DNA from: an uncultured SAR86 cluster bacterium
GTDB lineage: Bacteria > Pseudomonadota > Gammaproteobacteria > Magnimaribacterales > D2472
Reading direction: 5' to 3'
DNA: 60,772 nt
Assembly (NCBI GenBank): GCA_902596165.1
Contig: CACJSU010000008.1
Location: 1 to 60,772 of the forward strand
The notes beneath the pieces are model-generated. The model searched no databases. It worked only from the letters and a program-made list of their open reading frames with translations, and was not told where the DNA came from. Positions 2,401 through 8,957 of this stretch are shown piece after piece. Each line of letters starts with the position of its first letter. The stretch's first letter is position 1. The position numbers and the translations under genes were made by a program.

Positions 2401-3138
2401 TTAATCGTTCTGTTTAGCAAAGATTGTCGCAGCTTCTAAATCTTCACGAGTGTCTATGCCTATTGGCGCTTCATATTCAAAATCTTCAACAAAAATATTA
2501 AAACCATTATCTAAAAATCTTAATTGCTCTAGCTTCTCCAATTCCTCATTCGCAGTTGGTTTTAATTTACTTAATGCTTGCAGAGTCCCATTTGTATAAG
2601 CGTAGATACCCAGATGCTTCAGGTAATTTTTATACTCTGCGGTAAATGAGTTAGGTATCACAGCACGGGAAAAATACATGGCTCTTTTGGAAAGAGATCT
2701 TACAACTTTCACTTCATGCGAGCTATTGAAGTCCATTTTGTTTGAGAACTTAATGCATGCAGTTGATATTGGCGTGTCTATACTTAGCAACATAGGTAAC
2801 TGGTTTATAATTTGAACAGGCATAAATGGCTCATCACCTTGAAGATTAATAATTGGAACATCATCAGGTAAATCAAGTTTCTTAGAAGCTTCAGCAATTC
2901 TATCCATGCCAGAAATATGGTCTGATGAAGTCATCACAACATTTGCACCACGGGACTCACAATGATCTTTAATTTCACCACTATCGGTTGCAATATATAT
3001 ATTGCTAGCATTGGAGGTATTAGCTAAATCTATAACTCGAGATATAACAGTACGGCCATTAATCATAGCCATGGGTTTATTGGGGAGACGAGTTGAACCA
3101 GCTCTTGCTGGAACAATAATCACAAAAGATTTAGTCAT
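2401..3138 (-). CDS. kdsB: 3-deoxy-manno-octulosonate cytidylyltransferase KdsB
   Basis: Activates KDO as CMP-KDO for the lipid A-core of LPS. The 245-residue protein opens with the nucleotidyltransferase signature P-A-R-A-G-S-T-R-L-P-N-K-P (residues 10-22), has N-L-Q-G-D-E-P-F near residue 98 with the metal-binding aspartate, and ends with the L-E-Q-L-R-x-L and I-G-I-D-T-x-E-D-L motifs. Its start overlaps the Trm112-like gene by 8 bp. Neighbours lpxK, ycaR and murB place it in the envelope biosynthesis operon. Confidence 0.96.
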   Translation of the reverse strand: MTKSFVIIVPARAGSTRLPNKPMAMINGRTVISRVIDLANTSNASNIYIATDSGEIKDHCESRGANVVMTSSDHISGMDRIAEASKKLDLPDDVPIINLQGDEPFMPVQIINQLPMLLSIDTPISTACIKFSNKMDFNSSHEVKVVRSLSKRAMYFSRAVIPNSFTAEYKNYLKHLGIYAYTNGTLQALSKLKPTANEELEKLEQLRFLDNGFNIFVEDFEYEAPIGIDTREDLEAATIFAKQND

Positions 3139-3295
3139 TTAGAGAAAAAATTCTATCTTCTACCATCCTAGGTATATCATCCTCAATGGGATAGCCGATG
3201 TTGCATTGATCGCATTCAAGATGATCCTCTTTATCAATCAACTTTGATTTACATCTAATGCATCCCATAATATTTAAAATATCTTTATCTATCAT
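3131..3295 (-). CDS. ycaR: Trm112-like zinc-ribbon small protein (YcaR type)
   Basis: A 54-residue ORF lies between lpxK and kdsB. It has two cysteine pairs, C-I-R-C near residues 12-15 and C-D-Q-C near residues 28-31, followed by Y-P-I-E-D-D-I-P, the pattern of the Trm112/YcaR family. It overlaps the LpxK end by 11 bp and kdsB by 8 bp. The same position in enterics is held by ycaR, between lpxK and kdsB. The bacterial protein's role is poorly defined; eukaryotic Trm112 activates methyltransferases. Confidence 0.92.
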   Translation of the reverse strand: MIDKDILNIMGCIRCKSKLIDKEDHLECDQCNIGYPIEDDIPRMVEDRIFSLND

Positions 3296-6041
3296 TTAAT
3301 TTCTCCTCAAGCCGATCTATAAACTGGGACTCTATCTTAGATTCAATGCTGAGATACCAAATCTTTGAATTTTTAAAATGCTTGCATTTAGCAGCATCTT
3401 TTTCTGTCATCAGTATTGGGAGATGGTCAAGGTAATATAAATCTCTTTTGTTGTATTTATGATGATCTGGAAATGGATTTTTATCAAACTCAAAGCCCAG
3501 TCTAAGCAGTAAATCAAAAAACCTATTAGGATTACCAACTCCCGCTATTGCATGAACCTGATTATGCATGGGCCACTTGTCAATAGAGTATTCTTTACCA
3601 GAATTTAAATGAATAAATTTAGCTGGACTTAAAGTCATTAAAATTTCATCCCCTTCAGTAGGGCCTCCATTATTTACTATAAAATCAACCTCGGACAATC
3701 TTGATTTAGGCTCTCTTAGAGGACCTGCAGGAAATGCTAAGCCATTCCCCAGTCTCCTTGCACCATCAATTACAGCAATTTCAATATCTCTACCCATTGC
3801 GTAATGCTGCAATCCATCATCTGAAATAATCACATCAACATCATGTTTTTCTTGAAGTTTTTTTGCTGCTCTTGATCTATTTTTATCAATAAAAAATGGG
3901 ATATTTAATTTAGCTAAAATTTGAGCCTCGTCACCCGTTTGTTTATAGGTAGTTTCAGAGTTAACTTCAAGCGTGCCTGAATATTTGCCACCATATCCCC
4001 TACTTACTAACCCCGGTTTAAATCCACGTTTAGCTAGCTCGTTTGCAATAAATTTTACCAAAGGTGTTTTGCCAGTTCCGCCCATTGAAATATTGCCAAC
4101 AACAACTATGGGTTTAGGAGAGTTCCAAACTTTTTTAGGGTTTTTTAAATATGAATTCCTTCGCATCTTAACCAAAGAAGTAAATAAAAAAGTTAAAGGG
4201 GCCAAGATATATAACCAAAAGCTTTTGTTATACCAAGCATCAATGAGGTAGCCTTGTTGGGTTGGCTCCTCGGTAAAGGTTGGGAAATATTCTTGACCTA
4301 CAGGTTTTTTTGATGATTTTTTTTGATCGCTAGAATCACTAAATTTATTTTGATATAAACTCTTGTAGATGCCTTCTTGGCTTAATAATTCATCATGAGT
4401 GCCTGACTCGGCAACTGAGCCATTGTCTAAAACTAAAATTTTATCAGCATTTTCAATAGTAGAAAGTCTATGAGCAATTACAATGGTTGTCCTATTATTA
4501 ATTAATTGCTCTATTGCCCCTTGAACAATTAATTCAGATTCATTATCTAGCGCTGAAGTTGCCTCATCTAAAATAATGATTGGTGAATCTTTGTAAAAAG
4601 CTCTAGCTATAGCGATTCTTTGTCGCTGACCGCCAGACAGCAAGACGCCATCATCACCTATTTCCGATTTAAAACCTTCAGGAAGCCGTGAAATAAATTC
4701 ATTACAGCCAGAGATTTCCGCTGCTTCTTTTAATTTAGTTTCATCAATCTTACTGTCACCATAGGCAATATTTTTTTCAATGGTGTCATTAAACAAAGTT
4801 GGTGATTGATTTACGATCGAAATAGATTTTCTGAGATGAGATAATTGATAATCTAATATGCTGATATCATCAATACAGATTTTTCCTGAGTAATCAGAAT
4901 AAAATCTTGAAATCAAATTAGCAATTGTTGATTTCCCTGAGCCAGATTTCCCAACAATAGCAACAGTTTCATTTTGACTGATTTCAAAATTTAGATTGTC
5001 TAAGACAAATTCTTTAGAGTTATATGCAAAGGAAACATCTGAAAACGAAATATTTCCTGTAATTTTTGAGTCTAATTCACCTGAATCATCCTCTTCTTTT
5101 TCATCTAATTGATCAAATATTTCAACAGCAGCTGCCAAACCTTTCTGAATAACAGCATTAATATTTGATAGCTGTCTAATAGGCTTTGCCATCAAACCTG
5201 CAGCAGTAATAAATGCTACAAAATCTTCAGCGCTAAGTTTTATACCAAGTTGTGAACCCAGAGCAAAATACGCAACTATAGATAATGAAACTGAAACTAG
5301 CAGCTGAATAATAGGTGTTGCTAAATTACTTGTTGCTTCAAGCTTTAAATTTTGATTTTTATTTGAAGCATTGGCAGCGAAGAACCTATCTCTTTCATAT
5401 TTTTCAGCATTAAATGATTTAATTTCTAGGTTTCCATCTACAGCTTCAGACGCAAGATGAGTTACATCCCCCATTGCTGTTTGAATAGTTTTCGCTAACT
5501 TTCGCAATCTTCGACCCGCAATGTAAACAATTAGCGCTATAAATGGTGTGGTGATCAGCAATAACAGGGTTAATTTCCAATTCAAAGTAAACATATAAAC
5601 TAGCAAGCCAACAAGAAGAAATCCCTCTCTTACAAAAGTCTTGATTGCATTAGAAGCTGCGCCTGAAACTTGAGTGGTAGTAAAAGTAATTCTATTAATC
5701 AGTTGGCCTGATTGGTTTTGATCAAAAAAATTCTTAGGAAGATTGATAAGCTTTGAGAACAACTCAGACCTGAGATCATGAACAATACCAAAACCAACCC
5801 TAGACATAAAATAATTGCCTATAAAAAAGCCTGCGCCTCTTCCAATAGCTATAAAAATTAATGCCAGGACAAGATAGATACTGAAATCATTTTGATCAGA
5901 ATTGATGTATTCAATAATTCTTCTTATCCATTCAACAGCAGCAATATCTGCAGAAGCAAATAGAATGAATCCAAAAATGCTTAAAATAAATGAAAATTTA
6001 AATCGAAAGGTATACGAAAATAGTCTTTTTAAAGGATTCAT
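3285..6041 (-). CDS. MsbA lipid A flippase fused to LpxK tetraacyldisaccharide 4'-kinase
   Basis: One uninterrupted 918-residue frame encodes two enzymes. Residues 1-310 are an ABC exporter membrane domain. Residues 330-565 are its ATPase, with Walker A G-K-S-G-S-G-K-S-T at 364-372, signature L-S-G-G-Q near 468, Walker B I-I-I-L-D-E near 488 and the H-loop A-H-R-L-S-T near 524. After a ~30-residue polar linker, residues 597-918 are a complete LpxK: a hydrophobic N-terminus from L-I-D-A-W, P-loop G-N-I-S-M-G-G-T-G-K-T-P at 649-660, D-D-G-L-Q-H-Y at 742-748 and M-T-E-K-D-A-A-K near 878. LpxK phosphorylates the lipid A precursor and MsbA flips finished lipid A-core. No standard start codon lies at the junction, so LpxK is not expected to be separately translated from its own N-terminus. 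In most relatives these are two adjacent genes. Confidence 0.93.
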   Translation of the reverse strand: MNPLKRLFSYTFRFKFSFILSIFGFILFASADIAAVEWIRRIIEYINSDQNDFSIYLVLALIFIAIGRGAGFFIGNYFMSRVGFGIVHDLRSELFSKLINLPKNFFDQNQSGQLINRITFTTTQVSGAASNAIKTFVREGFLLVGLLVYMFTLNWKLTLLLLITTPFIALIVYIAGRRLRKLAKTIQTAMGDVTHLASEAVDGNLEIKSFNAEKYERDRFFAANASNKNQNLKLEATSNLATPIIQLLVSVSLSIVAYFALGSQLGIKLSAEDFVAFITAAGLMAKPIRQLSNINAVIQKGLAAAVEIFDQLDEKEEDDSGELDSKITGNISFSDVSFAYNSKEFVLDNLNFEISQNETVAIVGKSGSGKSTIANLISRFYSDYSGKICIDDISILDYQLSHLRKSISIVNQSPTLFNDTIEKNIAYGDSKIDETKLKEAAEISGCNEFISRLPEGFKSEIGDDGVLLSGGQRQRIAIARAFYKDSPIIILDEATSALDNESELIVQGAIEQLINNRTTIVIAHRLSTIENADKILVLDNGSVAESGTHDELLSQEGIYKSLYQNKFSDSSDQKKSSKKPVGQEYFPTFTEEPTQQGYLIDAWYNKSFWLYILAPLTFLFTSLVKMRRNSYLKNPKKVWNSPKPIVVVGNISMGGTGKTPLVKFIANELAKRGFKPGLVSRGYGGKYSGTLEVNSETTYKQTGDEAQILAKLNIPFFIDKNRSRAAKKLQEKHDVDVIISDDGLQHYAMGRDIEIAVIDGARRLGNGLAFPAGPLREPKSRLSEVDFIVNNGGPTEGDEILMTLSPAKFIHLNSGKEYSIDKWPMHNQVHAIAGVGNPNRFFDLLLRLGFEFDKNPFPDHHKYNKRDLYYLDHLPILMTEKDAAKCKHFKNSKIWYLSIESKIESQFIDRLEEKLNDR

Positions 6042-6043
6042 GA

Positions 6044-6448
6044 CTAACCATTATAGGTTTTAATCTGTATGTTTTGAAATCCAAGTTGCTGTAGGCCATC
6101 CATCAATTCAATAACCCATTCGTGGATAGCTTTGCTCTCTATAGATAGCACCACAACTTCTGATCTGGAAAAAGCTGCATTCACTCCAACAAATAATTGA
6201 TCTAGCTCAGACATTAAGAATTCCTGATTATCAATTATCATTTTTCCAGTATCTAATAAAATAATATTTTGAGAGTCATTGGAAATAGACGATGAAAATG
6301 ATTCGGATTCAGGGAGATCAAGGGTCAAGTATTGGTTGGTTTCAATTTTTGAGGTTACAACAAAGAAAATAACCAATAAAAACACGATGTCAATCAAAGG
6401 TGTGATTTCAACTGAAAGAGCTCGTTCTTTGTCATTATAAAATTTCAT
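6044..6448 (-). CDS. exbD: ExbD/TolR family biopolymer transport protein
   Basis: A 134-residue protein with one N-terminal transmembrane helix preceded by the family motif [11 protein letters not shown] (near residues 15-25), where the aspartate is the proton-path residue, then a periplasmic domain. With ExbB it converts proton-motive force into work for TonB (or TolA). It overlaps exbB by 5 bp and sits 2 bp before msbA-lpxK. Its position beside msbA is the known gammaproteobacterial order. A TonB receptor is encoded at 40.7-43.9 kb, but no tonB lies in this window. Confidence 0.9.
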
Positions 6449-7047
6449 TTCTTATACAAAAAATCTAAGAAAATTGAGGTATTAGCTTGCAAAAGCGACA
6501 TTAAAACTAAGGTTTTTTGCTCGAAATATCGATAAAAGACTATGGCTGGCACGGCAATTATTAAGCCAAAGGCGGTTGTAATTAACGCTTCTGAAATTCC
6601 GGCTGCTAATAAATCCGTATTAGCTGAACCATTTACATCAATGTTGCTAAAAACAGTTATCATCCCGACAACCGTTCCCAAAAGTCCAAGCAACGGGCTG
6701 ATGCTAGCTATTGTGCTGAGCATTGATAAGTTTCGCTCCAGTAATAATTTTATTTCTGAAGCTTTTTCCTCAGCTTTAATTTCAACAAATTCTCTTGAAC
6801 TTAAACGGTACTGATAACAGTGTTGAAGCAAATCACCCAGCTGAGATGTAGCTGCTATTTCCTGTTGATTTTGTAAATGAAAAGCATCTTTCTGTATTAA
6901 GTTTTGTGCTTGTCTTAGCAATCCATTGGGAGCAACCAGCCTCCTTTGCAAAAACCAAAGTCTTTCAAGAACTATCGAAATGAGCAGGATAGAACAAACA
7001 AGCAAAGGCCAGATAAACCATCCACCAGAAATTAATAAATTACTCAT
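6445..7047 (-). CDS. exbB: ExbB/TolQ/MotA family proton channel protein
   Basis: A 200-residue inner-membrane protein with an N-terminal helix (residues ~8-28) and two more in the second half. The conserved core [14 protein letters not shown] near residues 115-128 and the A-L-I-T-T-A-F-G-L segment near 155 identify the MotA/TolQ/ExbB channel family. It pairs with the downstream exbD (5-bp overlap). It could equally be TolQ-like, but the exbD partner and msbA/lpxK context favour ExbB. Confidence 0.9.
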
Positions 7048-7048
7048 A

Positions 7049-7726
7049 TTATGTTGGCTTTAAATCCCCATTCTCAATGCGAAATACCGTATCCAGTTTA
7101 CCAGCATAATTCAAATCATGAGTTGCAACCACAATACCAATATTATGATCTTTAGCTAATTTAATAGTAAGGTCTTGAATTATCTCAGCATTTTCTTGAT
7201 CTAAATTACCAGTTGGTTCATCCATCAATACAAACTCAGGTTCGTGAACAACAGCTCTGGCAATTGCAACTCGCTGCCGCTCTCCTCCTGAAAGCATATA
7301 TGGATATTTATTTTGTAATTCAATAATTCCGAGCTCATCAAGGGTTTGTAAAATTTTTTGAGAATTCTCAGTAATTTTTTTATTATTCGCAATTTTGAAA
7401 ACCAAATTACAATTTTCAAAAACAGTCAGATCATCTAACAGGTAATGGAATTGATATGCATATCCAAATAATGCATTTCTCATTGAATTAAAATTTTCTA
7501 AATTATTGGATAGCAAATTAATCTCATTAAAAAAAATGTTGCCCTGATCAGAGTGCTCCAAGCCAGCAAGTATTTGTAATAGAGTAGTTTTCCCGCTACC
7601 CGATGAGCCTATCACTCCAATTGTTTGACCTTCAGAAATTGTAATTGAGACGCCTGAAAGTACCTCAGAATAATGTCCTCCAGATTGGTAAGATTTGTAG
7701 AGATCTGAGGCTATAAGTTTATTCAT
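7049..7726 (-). CDS. lolD: Lipoprotein-releasing ABC transporter ATPase LolD
   Basis: A 225-residue ATPase with Walker [10 protein letters not shown] near 36-44, Q-loop Y-Q-F-H-Y-L-L near 92, signature M-L-S-G-G-E-R-Q-R near 145, Walker [11 protein letters not shown] near 166 and H-loop A-T-H-D-L. The Y-Q-F-H-x-L-L and E-P-T-G-N-L-D signatures are those of the LolD/MacB branch. It powers extraction of outer-membrane lipoproteins from the inner membrane. It overlaps the lolC/E gene by 8 bp; a LolA-like chaperone is encoded at 45.6 kb. Confidence 0.93.
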
Positions 7727-8957
7727 GTCGTAAAATTGTTACAGGCTTTAACTTTGCAGCCCTAGCAGCAGGAAAATATGAAAATACTAAGCTCATTACA
7801 AGAACAGAAATAGATATATTAATAAGTTGAGCTAGCCTAAATTCATATGGGAAATAATTAATGAAATAGCTATCCATCAAACTTCTATTGGTAAAGCTCT
7901 CTACAAAGTTTATAAGCTGATCAATGTTAGGAGTCACTGCCACTCCAATTAACAGACCAATAAATGTTCCTATCAATCCAATTATTAATCCCAAATTTAA
8001 AAAAATAAATGTTAATTGGGTCTTTGAGGAGCCCATGGTTTTTAATATAGCAATTTCTTTTTCCTTTGTTTTTACAGTCATTACAATGGTTGAAAGAATA
8101 TTAAACGCAGCAACAGTGATAATTAAAAATAGCATGAGACTTATTAATCTTTTTTCTAATTTAATTGCTTGAAATAAAGTCCCATGTGTTTGTTGCCATG
8201 AAGTAAAATATAGATTGTCTTGATCTAAATTTAGCTGAGCTAAAATATTGAATCCTACTGAGTTTACTTTGAACAAATCATCGATCTTCACCCTAATTCC
8301 CTGGGTTGAATTTAATGAGAGATTTAATATATTTGCAGCTAAGTCATGGTGAACTAGAACCAGCGATTGATCTAATTCAGCTTTAAGTTCAAAAATCCCA
8401 ACCACTTCTAAAGAAATGGTTCTTGGAAAGGTTCCTAGAATGGAAGAACGCAAATTCGTTGTGGTTATGTTAACAGGATCGCCAACTTCTATACCCAAGT
8501 ATCTAGCTAACCAAGAGCCAATAACAACACCTTTTTTTTGAGAAAGATTATCCAATCTTCCATCCATCATGTATTGAGGAAGAATAGACATGGATTCCTC
8601 TAACTCAGGCATTATTCCTGTAACAAAAACCCCTCTTGATCTATTTTTTGCACTCATCAAGCCTTGAGTTTCGATATATGGGCTTGCGCTTAAAACATTT
8701 TTTGAATCACTAACCTTGGATATTATCTCTTCATAATTTACAAGATTATCATTCGAGCGAATCACTAATTGAGGAACAACACCAAGCACTCTTGTTTGTA
8801 ATTCCTTCTCAAAGCCATTCATGACAGACAAAACTATTACTAAAGCAGCGACACCAAGTGACAGTCCAGCGATAGCCATTAAAGAAGTGAAGGATGCAAA
8901 TGCACCCTTCTTCGATCGAAAATACTTGTAGCCCAAGTAAATAGGCAGTGAGCTCAT
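7719..8957 (-). CDS. Lipoprotein-releasing system permease, LolC/LolE (possibly LolF)
   Basis: A 412-residue permease with an N-terminal helix (residues ~25-48, A-G-L-S-L-G-V-A-A-L), a ~220-residue periplasmic domain, and three C-terminal helices of the FtsX type. The N-terminal L-x-Y-x-x-x-K followed by F-x-S-x-x-S is typical of LolC/E. The periplasmic part has a G-T-F-P-R-T-I-S-L-E-V-V-G segment that aligns by eye with the LolC hook that docks LolA. Only one such permease gene is beside lolD, where E. coli has both lolC and lolE, so it may work as a homodimer (LolF type), unless a second copy lies elsewhere. Confidence 0.88.
   Translation of the reverse strand: MSSLPIYLGYKYFRSKKGAFASFTSLMAIAGLSLGVAALVIVLSVMNGFEKELQTRVLGVVPQLVIRSNDNLVNYEEIISKVSDSKNVLSASPYIETQGLMSAKNRSRGVFVTGIMPELEESMSILPQYMMDGRLDNLSQKKGVVIGSWLARYLGIEVGDPVNITTTNLRSSILGTFPRTISLEVVGIFELKAELDQSLVLVHHDLAANILNLSLNSTQGIRVKIDDLFKVNSVGFNILAQLNLDQDNLYFTSWQQTHGTLFQAIKLEKRLISLMLFLIITVAAFNILSTIVMTVKTKEKEIAILKTMGSSKTQLTFIFLNLGLIIGLIGTFIGLLIGVAVTPNIDQLINFVESFTNRSLMDSYFINYFPYEFRLAQLINISISVLVMSLVFSYFPAARAAKLKPVTILRHE

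Follow-up and report, generated by a model that had tools for sequence, protein, structure and literature searches.

Are MsbA, the flippase that exports lipid A, and LpxK, the kinase that phosphorylates the lipid A disaccharide at its 4' position, encoded as one protein in bacteria of the SAR86 cluster, and if so, how did this arrangement arise and what might it do? The question is raised by a locus of an uncultured SAR86 cluster bacterium (Gammaproteobacteria, Magnimaribacterales, D2472) on a stretch of 60,772 nucleotides (GenBank assembly GCA_902596165.1, contig CACJSU010000008.1, positions 1 to 60,772 of the forward strand), the whole of which is called the window here. On the reverse strand, positions 3285-6041 form a single ATG-started frame for 918 amino acids, a fused msbA-lpxK gene that contains no ambiguous bases. 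In E. coli, msbA is followed by lpxK in one operon according to passages of PMC10328246, and the two domains occur in the same order here; whereas the E. coli operon makes two separate proteins, the SAR86 gene specifies one. The gene and its parts are the following:

3285..6041, reverse strand: fused msbA-lpxK gene, 918 amino acids, recognized by its frame and profile matches
4341..6041, reverse strand: MsbA half, residues 1-567, with TIGR02203 above cut-off and ATPase motifs
4239..4340, reverse strand: linker, residues 568-601, from the end of MsbA to the AWY of the LpxK N-terminus
4170..4220, reverse strand: hydrophobic segment FWLYILAPLTFLFTSLV, residues 608-624, corresponding to the N-terminal helix of LpxK
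3288..4253, reverse strand: LpxK half with its native N-terminal segment, residues 597-918, with the P-loop K658/T659, D741/D742 and H860

MsbA and LpxK in one reading frame

Both the MsbA and the LpxK domains are located in one stop-free frame, and the fused frame in the window is confirmed as real. In the genome to which it belongs (86.6% complete), this frame is the sole match to LpxK and also the sole MsbA-level match, with 1529.7 bits, the next ABC (ATP-binding cassette) protein reaching 231.5 bits by its ATPase part alone. A scan of the window for promoters and terminators was uninformative (23 promoter-like sequences vs 24.1 expected, 5 terminator-like sequences vs 3.1 expected).

The first half has the fold of an ABC exporter, with a transmembrane region and one ATPase domain carrying the motif set. 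Pfam domains ABC_membrane (PF00664, residues 18-284) and ABC_tran (PF00005, residues 347-496) were both detected far above cut-off, and the NCBIfam model for MsbA, TIGR02203, matches residues 5-568 with 634.3 bits vs a cut-off of 602, covering positions 3-571 of its 572; a second MsbA model, NF008381 (PRK11176), gives 534.3 bits, which is below its cut-off of 867. What we take to be Walker A, LSGGQ, Walker B with the catalytic glutamate (D492 E493) and the switch histidine (H524) are invariant across 26 fused proteins. The best-matching solved structure is an MsbA chain, and the fusion resembles MsbA (TIGR02203; chains 9bd6, 7met, 3b5x) over its whole length with intact ATPase motifs. Ordinary MsbA ends after the nucleotide-binding domain, whereas the SAR86 fusion continues into a C-terminal LpxK. 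The MsbA half most likely flips lipid A as an ordinary flippase does.

The second half matches Pfam LpxK (PF02606) over residues 611-915 with 315.1 bits vs a cut-off of 27 and NCBIfam lpxK (TIGR00682) over residues 617-907 with 249.5 bits vs a cut-off of 91.95, and its best-matching solved structures are LpxK chains (4ehw, 4ehx). These LpxK structures derive from A. aeolicus, and passages of the same source name K51, T52, D138, D139 and H261 as residues that matter in that enzyme and describe its N-terminal helix as required for activity (PMC6286764). With the native A. aeolicus numbering derived from an offset of 2 in the structure alignment, these residues align with K658, T659, D741, D742 and H860, all of which are invariant across the 26 fused proteins. 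The segment FWLYILAPLTFLFTSLV aligns with N-terminal residues of 4ehw, a likeness to the N-terminal helix that is one of sequence only, and in 29/29 fused genes the most hydrophobic 17-mer begins 36-41 residues before the P-loop, with a mean hydropathy of 0.63-2.05. The fusion has in common with the LpxK 4'-kinase (TIGR00682/PF02606; 4ehw, 4ehx) the P-loop, the DD pair, the equivalent of H261 and the N-terminal hydrophobic segment; ordinary LpxK has a free N-terminus, whereas the SAR86 LpxK half continues from MsbA. This half most likely phosphorylates the lipid A disaccharide as an ordinary 4'-kinase.

Linker and junction

The first half of the linker is polar, rich in serine and lysine and variable, whereas its second half (in the window FPTFTEEPTQQGYLIDAWY) hardly varies within the genus and leads into the LpxK N-terminus. 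For 19 genes of the window's genus, the ratio of nonsynonymous to synonymous differences per site (pN/pS) was 0.34 in the linker, 0.10 in MsbA, 0.225 in the N-terminal part of LpxK and 0.096 in its catalytic part; these values are rough, since they are uncorrected proportions and synonymous sites are near saturation. The linker is under purifying selection. The distance from the AHRLS of MsbA to the P-loop of LpxK is 113-129 residues (mean 123) in 29 fusions of the order.

Neither ATG, GTG nor TTG occurs at or upstream of the LpxK N-terminus in the window, where the first candidate start is a TTG inside the hydrophobic segment, lacking a Shine-Dalgarno-like motif. Among the 29 fusions of the order, 21 have none of these codons at the native LpxK N-terminus or before it, and three have no start-type codon anywhere up to the P-loop.

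The original prediction, made from the letters of this DNA, had described MsbA and LpxK as joined in one 918-residue open reading frame by a polar linker of ~30 residues, with catalytic motifs intact in both halves and neither a stop nor a usable LpxK start at the junction. The frame and the family profiles bear out the first of these statements, residues 568-601 correspond to the linker, the motifs are columns that do not vary in 26 fusions, and the sole early TTG lies within the hydrophobic segment.

The fusion across the SAR86 order

In order to find the same architecture in relatives, as the original prediction had suggested, 203 genomes of what we infer to be the SAR86 order were searched. 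A match to LpxK was present in 158 of them, and in 35 of the 40 with a completeness of 90% or more and a contamination of 5% or less. A frame crosses the MsbA-LpxK junction in 154 of the 158 LpxK-bearing genomes, while the junction is obscured in four and split in none, which is the opposite of the outcome that had been named as refuting, namely that all relatives have split genes at this site. Among the best 150 of the 158 matches, 146 sit in frames of 892-966 amino acids, and four further full-length frames (G044, G194, G196, G200) bring the total to 150; the one TAA of G200 lies at an end, since its frame comprises 913 amino acids of a 916-codon match. In another four genomes (G140, G158, G016, G105), where the gene runs off a contig or is broken, one frame still contains the last part of MsbA together with the first part of LpxK. 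The junction is hidden in G085, G056 and G144, at or near contig ends, and in G082, which has many broken frames. Continuity follows mostly from frame length; both domains were verified in one frame in 35/37 compared loci, the exceptions being G085 and G056. In 13 further genomes of the window's genus, motifs of MsbA and of LpxK were likewise recognized within one frame. SAR86 cluster bacterium AG-313-D11 (contig QBVW01000003.1), 92% identical to the window in the best segment, also carries the fusion. A search of genome contigs with conserved patterns gave 80 loci, mostly general ABC transporters, since the patterns lie in the ATPase, and one SAR86 fusion.

Eleven of the 45 genomes without LpxK match were inspected. 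Two (G028 and G008) have an MsbA match in a shorter frame, which in G028 reaches the contig end, and the other nine showed no MsbA-level match either, as expected of missing contigs. Two of these nine (G049 and G055, 93% and 92% complete) lack both halves of the fusion and possess WaaA and an acyltransferase, which could reflect a missing contig or a real loss. At the locus of G105 and on contig 1 of G082, the fused gene is spread over several frames (three contigs each), which looks like sequencing error.

Fusions outside the order and their origin

In a sample of 369 genomes of the class, 4 of those listed being from the SAR86 order, at least 40 genomes outside the order gave one match over both halves, at least 7 of them stop-free, at least 27 with exactly one stop and at least 6 with more; a partial match in G505 comes in addition. 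For each of the stop-free seven (G261, G280, G560, G465, G244, G380, G395), comparison of each half confirmed the fusion, and three of them had already appeared in a smaller sample of 149 genomes. They belong to other gammaproteobacterial families and share the domain order and the single frame with SAR86, but do not form one clade with the order's fusions. In six of the seven, the spacing from AHRLS to the P-loop is 119-144 residues. The 14-kb locus of G261 contains eleven ambiguous bases, some of them inside the fused gene, where a linker codon reads GNN and cannot be a stop, and a codon of the LpxK half reads NAA and could be one; the fused genes of the other six are free of ambiguous bases. 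A further thirteen genomes with long LpxK frames were rejected as fusions: either msbA overlaps or adjoins the long frame but is out of frame with it or separated by a stop, or the locus has no MsbA match.

A sample of 398 genomes of the phylum gave stop-free matches over both halves only in the window and in G280 at a threshold of 1e-205, which may miss divergent fusions. A survey of LpxK in 160 genomes of the phylum revealed, among the matches listed, no LpxK frame of another class longer than 814 amino acids. Three loci of another class (in G584, G639 and G654) have LpxK frames of 814, 770 and 746 amino acids and no MsbA match above 150 bits; these may be spurious frames, or LpxK may be fused to another partner there.

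A tree was calculated from both halves, excluding the linker, for 57 genomes (16 of the order, 7 with other fusions and 34 unfused); it is a quick version, with deviating amino-acid composition in 30 rows. The fusions of the order form one clade (support of 98 in the Shimodaira-Hasegawa-like approximate likelihood ratio test, SH-aLRT). The tree needs six changes between fused and unfused states, at least five of which are forced by well-supported branches, and one fewer without G261. G560 and G465 sit beside unfused G345, and G395 beside unfused G256 of the same family. Forcing all fusions together costs 466 log-likelihood units (approximately unbiased (AU) test, p 8e-35), and a single ancient fusion for all fused genomes was rejected on this basis. 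The fusion arose independently more than once. In the tree, G244 appears as the sister of the order with a support of 89, and it may share the order's origin of the fusion.

Many Gammaproteobacteria carry lpxK in the frame of msbA behind a single stop, as seen at 22 loci. In 23 of 41 unfused loci, lpxK is in frame with msbA and its frame opens immediately behind the msbA stop, a proportion that is not a class frequency, since many loci were chosen as known in-frame pairs. A candidate lpxK start follows 0-15 codons after the msbA stop in 22/22 examined pairs (TAA 10, TGA 9, TAG 3). With a single in-frame stop between the genes, one point change would fuse msbA and lpxK. Unfused in-frame pairs have a spacing from AHRLS to the P-loop of 104-127 residues (mean 112), and from the comparison of spacings the fusion would be the outcome of one lost stop codon and about ten added residues.

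A possible role of the fusion and alternative explanations

We consider it probable that the gene specifies a bifunctional inner-membrane protein, an MsbA that carries a complete C-terminal LpxK on a linker of ~30 residues, which would give both activities a fixed 1:1 dosage and a common location. The fusion would have a single origin, at the root of the SAR86 order or earlier, the simplest route being that two genes which already shared a frame lost the stop codon between them. The protein presumably stays as one chain in cells, with each half keeping its ordinary job and both being active. Since MsbA works as a dimer, each flippase may carry two LpxK kinases underneath it, on the side of the membrane that the LpxK N-terminal helix has to occupy. 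Chiefly, lipid A 4'-kinase and exporter would be present at 1:1 and co-located, with no direct hand-off of lipid IVA, and the linkage may itself bring a benefit.

Several points weigh against this proposal. The fusion is known here from genes, and the protein may be cleaved after translation. In eight of the 29 order fusions, a start codon coincides with the native LpxK N-terminus or precedes it, and in one of them (L046) this codon follows a GAGG, the sole Shine-Dalgarno-like case in 29. By pN/pS, the linker changes faster than both domains. A ratio of 1:1 is not obviously better, since in E. coli LpxK is put at 432 and MsbA at 206 per cell, about twice as much LpxK, in figures that a part of PMC4412817 gives as estimates, not measurements. 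Finally, order-wide retention could reflect drift and the difficulty of splitting rather than a benefit.

The last point leads to the strongest alternative, which is possible though it convinces us less: drift in a compact ancestral genome removed the stop, the two halves remained active, reversal was hard and the linkage does nothing. Such a neutral or streamlining event agrees with the one-stop in-frame layout that is common in unfused relatives, with their lpxK starts so close behind the stop, with a spacing in fused genes that averages only ~11 residues above the unfused one, and with the genome sizes of the order, 0.7-1.8 Mb among the matches listed. However, the linker is constrained, reversal was seen in no genome of the order, and five of the seven other fused genomes measure 2.3-4.2 Mb and are not streamlined, the remaining two having 1.7-1.8 Mb. 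Repeated independent origins also argue against it, though the one-step neutral route fits these too.

The original prediction had gone further and regarded the fusion as a channelling device, a claim that the pathway weakens. In E. coli, the product of LpxK is lipid IVA, to which WaaA adds 3-deoxy-D-manno-octulosonic acid (Kdo) and which LpxL and LpxM acylate before MsbA flips it, and E. coli MsbA accepts lipid IVA only poorly as a substrate, export being possible under slow growth or when MsbA is overproduced or altered in certain ways (passages of PMC8151780 and PMC6286764). In the SAR86 order, the kinase product is probably not the usual substrate of the flippase. Direct channelling would be favored if the intervening steps had been lost, but such a loss was rejected for the order, where WaaA is kept in 53/60 genomes and LpxL-type acyltransferases in 57/60; direct channelling is unlikely, since these retained enzymes act between the two halves. 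A fixed dosage with co-location, or a harmless fusion that could not easily be reversed, fits better than straight channelling.

An extended form of the idea, rather unlikely in our estimation, is that the fusion forms the core of a lipid A assembly and export complex, in which attachment of LpxK to the flippase would allow WaaA and LpxL to act on lipid IVA at the mouth of MsbA and the state of the kinase would signal the supply of precursor to the exporter; if true, the repeated fusions would mark an MsbA-LpxK partnership that exists unlinked in ordinary Gram-negative bacteria. We likewise give little credence to a metabolon in which the LpxK product passes via WaaA and LpxL docked on the fusion complex into MsbA. 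The narrow spacing within the order, the conserved linker segment in the genus and the recurrent fusion of the same two steps are in line with it, but at least two enzymes, retained in the order, work between the steps of the two halves, in the window's genome WaaA and acyltransferases are encoded elsewhere, on contigs C16 and C19, and the spacing is looser in the six other fusions mentioned.

It is still less probable that the chain is later cut in the linker or that LpxK is also started internally, either of which would yield two ordinary enzymes. The variable, polar first half of the linker could be a cut site, and internal initiation would be allowed by the eight genes in which a candidate start codon lies close to the LpxK N-terminus; against this, there is no conserved start place and only one Shine-Dalgarno-like motif in 29 genes, in a search that did not extend to cleavage signals. 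An internal start for a free LpxK was rejected, as no codon occupies a conserved place.

Lastly, that an assembly or sequencing error joined two genes is refuted for the window by a junction continuous in separate assemblies throughout the order, down to ~44% protein identity and including AG-313-D11, and nothing was found in favor of such an error.

Neighboring genes

The surroundings of the fused gene contain the following features:

2401..3138, reverse strand: kdsB, TIGR00466 with 216.7 bits vs a cut-off of 155.2
3131..3295, reverse strand: small open reading frame of 54 amino acids with four cysteines, overlapping the end of the fusion, before kdsB
6044..7047, reverse strand: ExbD/TolR-like and ExbB/TolQ-like genes, directly upstream, matches below equivalog cut-offs
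7049..8957, reverse strand: ABC ATPase (LolD-like by position) and LolC/E-type permease, the permease with TIGR02212 above cut-off

The small reading frame is presumably YcaR/Trm112-like and stands in the place of E. coli ycaR. In all 28 examined loci of the order, the fusion is flanked on one side by matches to the window's LolC/E-type permease and ABC ATPase and on the opposite side by kdsB and murB. In 12/28 loci, genes like ExbB/ExbD were recognized in between, and in the rest they are possibly too divergent. The seven fusions outside the order have similar, less complete neighborhoods.

Significance of the fusion

Both halves are ordinary members of their families. A full-text search of open-access literature, which leaves subscription papers and database annotations outside, returned no report of a natural MsbA-LpxK fusion in the texts it reached. 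Automatic annotation sometimes labels such chains 'multifunctional fusion protein', and the fusion may be visible in databases without discussion. Annotators should be aware that, in these genomes, a product labelled 'MsbA' or 'LpxK' is a two-part protein of 900 residues. A fusion that is order-wide and was remade several times elsewhere is a hint that the lipid A kinase and the flippase may work side by side, and it makes contact between MsbA and LpxK in ordinary bacteria a simple, testable question.

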